Shown here in pieces: positions 4,202 to 5,758 of a stretch of DNA of 5,760 nucleotides. The position numbers were made by a program, and so were the translations under genes. The stretch covers positions 1 through 5,760 of the forward strand of contig MVRP01000233.1 of NCBI GenBank assembly GCA_002067405.1, in the 5' to 3' direction. The notes under the pieces were generated by a model. That model saw only the letters and a program-made list of their open reading frames with translations. It did not search any database and was not told where the DNA came from. Numbering within the stretch: position 1 is the first letter of the stretch; each line of letters starts with the position of its first letter. The stretch comes from Syntrophorhabdaceae bacterium PtaU1.Bin034. GTDB taxonomy: Bacteria; Desulfobacterota_G; Syntrophorhabdia; Syntrophorhabdales; WCHB1-27.

Positions 4202-4216
4202 GGCTTGCAAGGCAAG

Positions 4217-4223
4217 AAAGGAG
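4217..4223 (+). promoter_or_regulatory. Ribosome binding site fixing the GTG start of the PurF-like gene
   Basis: AAAGGAG lies 5 bp before GTG 4229-4231. The frame is open further upstream to a TTG at 4205, but that codon has no ribosome site and would add a non-homologous tail before the conserved SGIFGF start. The choice matters because the first residues decide whether a nucleophile Cys is present. Confidence 0.8.
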
Positions 4224-4228
4224 ATACG

Positions 4229-5557
4229 GTGAGCGGAATCTTTGGGTTCAGCGGCAAAGGCAACGCGTTCGTCGAGGTAAAGAACGGTCTGGAGAATCTC
4301 TCCCACCGGGGACAGGAAAGCTGGGGCATTGTTTCAGGGCTGAAAGATGGCTCCCTTTCGGAAGTGAGGCGGGTCGGCTCAATCTTTCAGTCTTCCCCGC
4401 TCAATCGAATGCATTACGGTTCGGTCGCTATCGGGCAGGTCCGTTATCCCACGGCAGGAGAAGCGACCGAGCGTAATTCCCAGCCGATTGTCGGAAGCTT
4501 CAAAAAAGAGAGGATTGCCCTGGTCCACAACGGCCATATTCCGAAGTACAAGCAATTGATGGAAGAAATAGGCGGGCTCTTTCAAACGGAGACCGATACG
4601 GAAGTTATCCTGCAGATGATTGCCCGCGCAGAAGGCTCCAATCCTGTGGAAAAGGCAAGAAAGACTTTGGCGTTACTGAGCAGGCACTCCGCTTTCAGCC
4701 TGATAATTCTCAATAAAGGGAAACTTATTGCAGCACGGGACCCCTTCGGCTTTCGGCCCCTTTCCGTGGCAAGAAGGGGCGAGGAGGGAGACTACGAATG
4801 GGCAATAGCCTCCGAGACTTGTGCTTTTCACGATCATTTTGAAATGATGGGGGATGTCGAGCCCGGCGAAATGGTGGTAATTGACGGAGAGGAGGCAAGG
4901 ACATTCTCTTTCGCCTCTCCCGATCCCCGTCCCTGTATCCTGGAATGCCTTGACTACGCCTCACCCGCAAGCCGCGTTTTTTCAAGGAACATCTACGAAT
5001 TCCGGGAGACGGTAGGGGCACTGCTCGGACAGAACGAACACCAGAAGGCAGACATGATTATTCCCGTTCCTCGCGCAGCCGTCCCTGCAGCACTCGGTTT
5101 TCATGCTGTTACCAATATCCCCTACAGGGAAGTGATCAGCACGATCAGCGAAATAGGCAGGATCTTCATAATTTCCAAAGAGAAAGAAAGGCTGGAAAAG
5201 GCCGAAAAGAAGTTCCAGATCAACCGGGAGCTGATAAGTGGGAAGGAGGTTTTGCTGGTCGATACGCTCCTCGTGAGAGGATCTACCGCGACAATCCTGA
5301 TTCCCAAATTACGCGAGGCAGGAGCAACCAAAATTCATTTGCGTCTCACGGCGCCGCCGCCCCGTTTTCCGTGCTACATGGGAATGGCAATGGCGAAACC
5401 CGGAGAGCTGCTGGGGACAAACAGGACCGATGAGCAACTGAGGATATTGCTCGGTGTTGAAACGTTCCAATACTTGAGGAGCGAAGACCTGCGACAATTG
5501 ACCCGGACGCATTTCTGCGATGCGTGCCTGACGGGACAGTACCCATTTCCGGTTTAG
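4229..5557 (+). CDS. PurF-like protein (amidophosphoribosyltransferase homologue) lacking catalytic residues
   Basis: A 442-residue homologue of PurF, which uses glutamine and PRPP in the first committed step of purine synthesis. Numbering takes GTG as residue 1. The N-terminal class II glutaminase domain (about 1-230) has LSHRGQESWGI (24-34), Arg72 in QVRYPTAG, HNG (100-102), Asp123 in TETDTEV and RDPFGFRPL (171-179). The expected nucleophile Cys after the start Met is Ser2 (MSGIFGF). The phosphoribosyltransferase domain (about 235-442) has VLLVDTLLVRGST (341-353), where PurF has Asp-Asp-Ser. The flexible loop KNRYVGR is replaced by TISEIGR (305-311), and the PDSG-type motif is PRAA (280-283). 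Cys236, Cys382, Cys430 and Cys433 match the [4Fe-4S] ligands of Bacillus-type PurF. The glutamine pocket and cluster therefore look retained while both catalytic sites are altered. The frame is intact and slightly shorter than B. subtilis PurF (476). It is unlikely to be the functional purF. A pseudoenzyme, a regulator or a Ser-nucleophile hydrolase are all possible. No pur genes adjoin it. Confidence 0.88.
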   Translation: MSGIFGFSGKGNAFVEVKNGLENLSHRGQESWGIVSGLKDGSLSEVRRVGSIFQSSPLNRMHYGSVAIGQVRYPTAGEATERNSQPIVGSFKKERIALVHNGHIPKYKQLMEEIGGLFQTETDTEVILQMIARAEGSNPVEKARKTLALLSRHSAFSLIILNKGKLIAARDPFGFRPLSVARRGEEGDYEWAIASETCAFHDHFEMMGDVEPGEMVVIDGEEARTFSFASPDPRPCILECLDYASPASRVFSRNIYEFRETVGALLGQNEHQKADMIIPVPRAAVPAALGFHAVTNIPYREVISTISEIGRIFIISKEKERLEKAEKKFQINRELISGKEVLLVDTLLVRGSTATILIPKLREAGATKIHLRLTAPPPRFPCYMGMAMAKPGELLGTNRTDEQLRILLGVETFQYLRSEDLRQLTRTHFCDACLTGQYPFPV

Positions 5558-5684: not shown

Positions 5685-5758
5685 GCCCCCGTAGCTCAGG
5701 TGGATAGAGCACAGGATTCCTAATCCTGGTGCCGCATGTTCGAGTCATGCCGGGGGCA
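5685..5758 (+). tRNA. tRNA-Arg (anticodon CCT)
   Basis: A 74-nt cloverleaf with every stem perfectly paired: acceptor GCCCCCG/CGGGGGC, D-stem GCTC/GAGC, anticodon stem CAGGA/TCCTG, and T-stem GCATG/CATGC with loop TTCGAGT. The anticodon loop TTCCTAA places CCT at 5719-5721, so it reads AGG (Arg). The variable loop is GTGCC and the discriminator base is A5758. The next bases are TT, so CCA is not encoded and must be added by nucleotidyltransferase. It ends 2 bp before the window edge, so its terminator and any downstream tRNA genes are not seen. Confidence 0.97.

Follow-up and report, generated by a model that had tools for sequence, protein, structure and literature searches.

The PurF-like gene and its surroundings

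The window analysed here is a stretch of 5,760 nucleotides that begins contig MVRP01000233.1 of Syntrophorhabdaceae bacterium PtaU1.Bin034. Its forward strand carries a gene for a PurF-like protein of 442 amino acids (4229..5557, stop codon included) in which, as aligned sequences show it, both active sites of PurF have been replaced by other conserved residues. The gene starts with GTG, 5 bases after the Shine-Dalgarno sequence AAAGGAG (4217..4223), and a similar Shine-Dalgarno sequence is found in most of 19 upstream regions compared for genes of the same clade. Residues 3-440, near the full length, align with PurF of Bacillus subtilis (1ao0; 238.6 bits) and of Arabidopsis (6lbp; 250.9 bits), and the class-II glutamine amidotransferase domain PF13522 is matched at 57.6 bits, the gathering cut-off being 27. 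The score against the PurF equivalog family TIGR01134 is 293.9 bits, below the curated cut-off of 350, and the phosphoribosyltransferase domain PF00156 gives no Pfam match in the window protein at E up to 0.001.

The protein begins VSGIFGF..., placing a Ser (4232..4234) at position 2, where PurF has its N-terminal nucleophile Cys. A Cys hidden by an earlier start is ruled out; none is gained by the possible extension from a TTG at 4205. In the half that binds phosphoribosyl pyrophosphate (PRPP) in PurF, the motif PDSG has become PRAA (residues 281-284; 5069..5080) and the flexible loop reads TISE (305-308; 5141..5152; clade consensus TVGE), at the same length as in 1ao0 and 6lbp. The PRPP loop itself reads DTLLVRGST (345-353; 5261..5287), having lost its second Asp and kept the first together with Arg350-Gly-Ser-Thr. 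Also kept are Arg72 (4442..4444) and Asp123 (4595..4597), which we take to form the glutamine pocket, and Asn101-Gly102 (4529..4534), presumably the oxyanion hole as in PurF, these roles being assumed from PurF and GlmS structures. Four Cys, namely Cys236 (4934..4936), Cys382 (5372..5374), and Cys430 with Cys433 (5516..5527), match the first to fourth [4Fe-4S] ligands of B. subtilis PurF, positions that we take to be the cluster ligands in Bacillus-type PurF generally. An earlier note, made from the sequence of this stretch alone, had described these replacements, the retained pocket residues and the four Cys, and translation and alignment to 1ao0 and 6lbp place all of them where it did. Its reference for the flexible loop, KNRY, does not hold for the phylum, in which canonical PurF has R, H and Y at positions 305, 307 and 308 (63/63 each), an RNHY-like motif; the change to TISE stands.

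The other genes of the window, for a DUF885 protein, a lipase-like hydrolase and a methyltransferase, give no hint of function. The methyltransferase (367-1242, +) appears by eye to have an N-terminal signal sequence and is perhaps exported. Just downstream of the PurF-like gene is a tRNA-Arg (CCT) on the same strand (5685-5758); no tRNA-Arg lies beside the clade gene in 18 other loci scanned, and across the 12 sources scanned for RNA elements the window's tRNA alone was found.

A clade of PurF look-alikes

At least 127 protein clusters, with 66-100% identity to the window protein, share the altered-site pattern; a search with the window protein gave at least 120 of them including itself (69-100% identity), and one with a basal member at least seven more. 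The organisms named by the sources are Syntrophorhabdus, Syntrophorhabdales, Syntrophorhabdaceae, or metagenome-assembled genomes called Syntrophus or Syntrophobacterales, and the class of the carrier genomes we take to be Syntrophorhabdia. Many of these proteins are labelled amidophosphoribosyltransferase in the databases. Nothing in the joined-query listing lies between the clade, at 70% identity or more, and ordinary PurF, at 41% or less (BLAST), the nearest non-clade proteins listed beginning at 300 bits. The non-clade set used below consists of 99 listed proteins of about 446 amino acids or more, shorter ones falling outside that search. In a sample of the phylum the variant is present in 4 of 297 genomes, with scores of at least 428 bits (428 being that of a copy cut by a contig end) and the next score at 291. 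Among 46 genomes of the class there are 18 carriers, in two of which the gene is cut by contig ends; the frame has no internal stop in 17 of the 18, and in the remaining one a TAG cuts it short by two codons.

The nucleophile is gone throughout: position 2 in the 127 listed clade clusters is Ser in 120, Gly in 5 and a gap in 2, with Cys in 0/125 scorable. Of the 99 listed non-clade proteins, 98 have Cys there and one has a gap. Position 346 is Thr in 91 clusters, Ser in 34 and Asn in 2, and Asp in 99/99 of the non-clade set. The earlier note had named close homologues that keep Cys2 and Asp346 as evidence of a decaying copy, and no listed clade member keeps either. Asp282 of PDSG is absent from all 127, with an Arg in its place in 122, and Glu308 and Thr305 are found in 122 and 120, whereas all 99 non-clade proteins carry Asp346, Asp282 and Tyr308. 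PF00156 is annotated on 0/127 of the listed clade clusters and on 98/99 of the listed non-clade rows.

The retained residues are just as constant. Arg72, Asp123, Asp345, Arg350, Cys236 and Cys382 are present in 127/127 listed clusters, Asn101-Gly102 in 126 (one gap), and Cys430 and Cys433 in 126 each; judged by this conservation, strong purifying selection acts on the residues of the glutamine pocket, on Asp345 and Arg350 in the phosphate loop, and on all four cluster Cys. On the glutamine side the clade also has Pro for Ser74 and His for Asn103, besides the nucleophile change, and Tyr73 is replaced by Ala or Ser in 7 of the 127. The five Gly2 members retain R72, N101, G102 and D123, which is the pattern expected of ligand binding without hydrolysis.

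A quick tree was built from 37 variants together with 63 canonical PurF proteins of the phylum; two contig-cut variants and most (five in six) of the P clusters were left out. All the variants fall to one side of a branch whose Shimodaira-Hasegawa-like approximate likelihood ratio test (SH-aLRT) value is 100. The Ser2/Thr346-type proteins form one conserved clade, the outcome that the earlier note had proposed to look for. The clade stem measures 1.83 changes per column from the midpoint root; where the clade attaches within PurF is tentative, resting as it does on a quick, midpoint-rooted tree with a long stem, for which the program gave a warning of long branches meeting. Variants L082 (G001) and P0120 have unusually long end branches (0.47 and 0.42).

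Canonical PurF in the carrier genomes

A separate canonical purF was found in 17 of the 18 carrier genomes, G305 being the exception, and in all 17 it lies on another contig; the 46 class genomes were searched at 1e-60, and their completeness is not stated. The variant was not found in 28 of the 46, of which 8 are without any PurF match at that threshold, so that some must be incomplete. Each of three carriers checked with TIGR01134 has a single copy that passes the cut-off (532-546 bits) and a variant that does not, the variant of one being contig-cut. Cys2 and Asp346 are present in all 63 canonical PurF proteins of the phylum, including those of the 17 carriers, to which the window protein is only 34-38% identical. 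The second, canonical purF that the earlier note had suggested looking for is thus present in the relatives, from which its presence in the window's own genome is inferred.

The pairwise ratio of nonsynonymous to synonymous change (dN/dS) has a median of 0.047 for the variant and 0.069 for the canonical genes of the carriers, over the pairs with pS below 0.65 (16 of 153 and 17 of 136, respectively), the remaining pairs being saturated at silent sites; the variant is as low as the true enzyme. A comparison of 138 variant rows, drawn from two sources and some of them identical, with 63 canonical ones finds 78 sites near-fixed in both sets and 59 in the variant alone; at 51 sites near-fixed in canonical PurF, the variant most often has a different residue. 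The clade has less depth than the canonical set, which inflates its number of fixed sites. The gene is thus very probably a real, diverged and selected paralogue that cannot carry out the PurF reaction in the known way, and the earlier note's proposal of selection for some other role is borne out by the conserved clade, the low dN/dS and the canonical purF of the carriers.

Predicted structure and known systems

A model made with canonical rows in its alignment predicts the whole two-domain PurF fold over residues 2-442. A clade-only model (predicted local distance difference test score 72.8, predicted template modelling score 0.62) was set aside, its domains packing unlike those of PurF (template modelling score 0.48 and root-mean-square deviation 9.2 to 1ao0). 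With PurF (TIGR01134; 1ao0/1gph, 6lbp) the clade shares the predicted fold, the glutamine-pocket residues, the four Cys, and Asp345 and Arg350 in the phosphate loop; unlike PurF, it has Ser or Gly for the Cys and lacks the Asp-Asp, the PDSG and the R/K-N-H/R-Y loop, the window protein falls below the family cut-off, and the gene is an extra copy beside canonical PurF. Matches to the predicted structure include 1mbz, 1jgt and 1q15, that is, beta-lactam and carbapenam synthetases, which have a class-II amidotransferase fold without glutaminase activity and keep their synthetase activity. They share the class-II domain with the clade and differ in the C-terminal domain.

The closest precedent, as described in PMC3261824 (section 6), is PurF' of the Crenarchaeota, a second PurF-like protein of unknown function without the nucleophile Cys. 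The bacterial clade is a parallel case, likewise an extra gene beside a canonical one, in which the PRPP site is changed as well. Many PurF' proteins have Ala or Val for the Cys and their genes lie close to purine genes, whereas the clade has Ser (Gly in 5) and, in some genomes, P-II genes nearby. The same paper describes Mlab_0150 of Methanocorpusculum labreanum, a PurF paralogue with Ser for Cys as in the clade; it apparently arose by duplication not long ago and resembles the PurF of its own organism most, unlike the clade, which is far diverged from the PurF of its carriers. No report of the clade was found in the literature searched, most subscription journals lying outside the coverage.

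Gene neighbourhood and a possible link to nitrogen control

A P-II gene precedes the variant by 0.2-1.0 kb in three genomes (G100, G203 and G319). Both belong to a run that also holds F1, a presumed membrane protein, and a NifA-like activator, which in G100 scores 533.7 bits (cut-off 528.85). The same run includes an ammonium transporter in G100 and, in G319 and by similarity G203, an amino-acid permease with a P-II domain at its end. At L072:6735-8976, and similarly in L085, an amino-acid permease with a C-terminal P-II domain is followed by a separate P-II gene. In G311 and G312, F1 follows the variant on the same strand at a distance of 0.25 kb. F1, which was called outer-membrane-like on a weak match (17.9 bits, cut-off 135), occurs at 17 places in 14 of the 18 carriers, and at 10 of these places P-II is no more than 3 kb away.

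The variant is thus no more than 1.2 kb from a P-II gene or F1 in 5 of 18 genomes, against 0.063 expected if placement is even over rounded genome sizes and contig breaks are ignored, the 1.2 kb limit and the addition of F1 having been chosen after the distances were seen. By the tree those five genomes represent three lineages (G203 placed by its canonical copy only); counted by lineage, the probability of three or more is 3.9e-5, and for P-II alone, with two lineages, that of two or more is 0.0011. None of the neighbours scanned against families, which were only some of them, was named as a purine gene. Nitrogen fixation was rejected as a correlate for being too rare (nifH in 2 of 46 class genomes, one above the cut-off, both carriers).

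The usual glutamine sensor of P-II systems is GlnD. A search with an E limit of 1e-20 found no GlnD in any of the 46 genomes of the class, carriers and non-carriers alike, with a model that recovered only 3 of 14 control genomes; across the phylum 46 of 79 genomes match and 40 pass its cut-off. P-II itself was found at 1e-15 in 40 of the 46 (16 of 18 carriers, 24 of 28 others).

In G312 (L106:2463-7089) and G311 (L107:3205-6399), the only canonical-type purF found is followed directly by an ammonium transporter and a P-II gene, and in the quick tree it groups away from the other purF genes of the class. This arrangement hints that PurF itself may be tied to nitrogen control.

Possible function of the variant

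The protein is most likely a neofunctionalised PurF paralogue of the Syntrophorhabdia that no longer makes phosphoribosylamine. For its present role we tentatively favour that of a non-catalytic, glutamine-binding regulator, perhaps of nitrogen status: the kept pocket, found in the Gly2 members too, and the P-II neighbourhood in 5 of 18 carriers point to a glutamine-related sensor. The protein would fold like PurF around an iron-sulfur (Fe-S) cluster and bind glutamine without hydrolysing it, or at most slowly in the Ser members. The old PRPP pocket would hold a changed ligand, perhaps a nucleotide monophosphate, and a partner, for which the P-II/ammonium-transport system and the true PurF are plausible candidates, would receive the occupied state as a report of nitrogen status.

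Several observations weigh against this reading. A conserved operon had to be rejected, as no gene is common to all 19 variant loci, and neither P-II nor F1 lies beside the variant in 13 of the 18 carriers or in the window. The purF standing in the purF-amt-P-II run of G311 and G312 is the canonical-type one, so that other causes may bring PurF-like genes close to P-II/amt clusters. Non-carriers lack GlnD too, so its absence does not single out the variant, and the GlnD model recovered only 3 of the 14 controls. Carriers G305 and G320 have no P-II at 1e-15 (weak ones appear at 1e-6). No sigma-54 promoter stands out in the 19 upstream regions, the best, in L083, being equalled by 3 of 200 shuffles. 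Finally, canonical rows in the alignment of the better structural model favour a PurF fold, and the clade-only model is poorer.

Of the roles suggested in the earlier note, the glutamine sensor thus keeps some ground, and a Ser-type N-terminal nucleophile (Ntn) hydrolase is weakened by Gly2. The broader proposal of a new enzyme, either such a hydrolase or a transferase using a changed phosphosugar or nucleotide substrate in a remodelled phosphoribosyltransferase pocket, is unlikely but a serious contender. Ser nucleophiles do exist in other Ntn hydrolases, the Met before the Ser would by the usual rule be removed to expose it, and the replacement residues R282, E308 and T305, like the 59 clade-only near-fixed sites, are themselves conserved. 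Against this stand the five Gly2 members with an intact pocket, the loss of both Asp346 and Asp282 in every listed cluster, and the report that E. coli PurF with Ser or Ala for the Cys has no detectable glutamine-dependent activity (PMC3261824).

Almost as likely is a partner or decoy subunit, which without catalysis of its own would join the true PurF in mixed dimers or tetramers and tune its activity or feedback inhibition. Pseudo-subunits of this kind are known for PRPP synthetase, and the predicted fold and the length are kept over the whole chain in genomes that nearly all have canonical purF too. This too seems unlikely, given the low identity between the two proteins and the long stem, the location of the genes on different contigs in all 17 genomes, the 28 class genomes in which the variant was not found (8 of them, as said, without any PurF match), and the P-II neighbourhood, which a partner of PurF does not predict. 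A fuller version of the sensor, in which the glutamine and nucleotide pockets are read jointly, with redox input from the Fe-S cluster and output to P-II/ammonium transport or the true PurF, in a class where GlnD was not found, is doubtful.

Ammonia-dependent synthesis of phosphoribosylamine, named as one possibility by the authors of the PurF' work (PMC3261824), would suit a second PurF without the Cys, but is highly improbable for a clade in which Asp346, PDSG and the flexible loop are all changed and no listed cluster is annotated with PF00156. A decaying, misread or chimeric purF, which the window protein's score below the PurF cut-off might suggest, is already refuted by the clade, with its pattern common to at least 127 clusters, dN/dS near 0.05, and frames free of internal stops but for the one that ends two codons early.

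Whichever role applies, pathway reconstructions may be counting the clade proteins, under their amidophosphoribosyltransferase labels, as purine synthesis. The clade offers a testable system for following the change from metabolic enzyme to sensor: in part of a bacterial class, a pseudoenzyme altered at both sites has been conserved alongside the true PurF, a textbook allosteric enzyme. If the clade protein does read glutamine as the favoured regulator would, it might stand in for the GlnD that was not found in these P-II-keeping bacteria.
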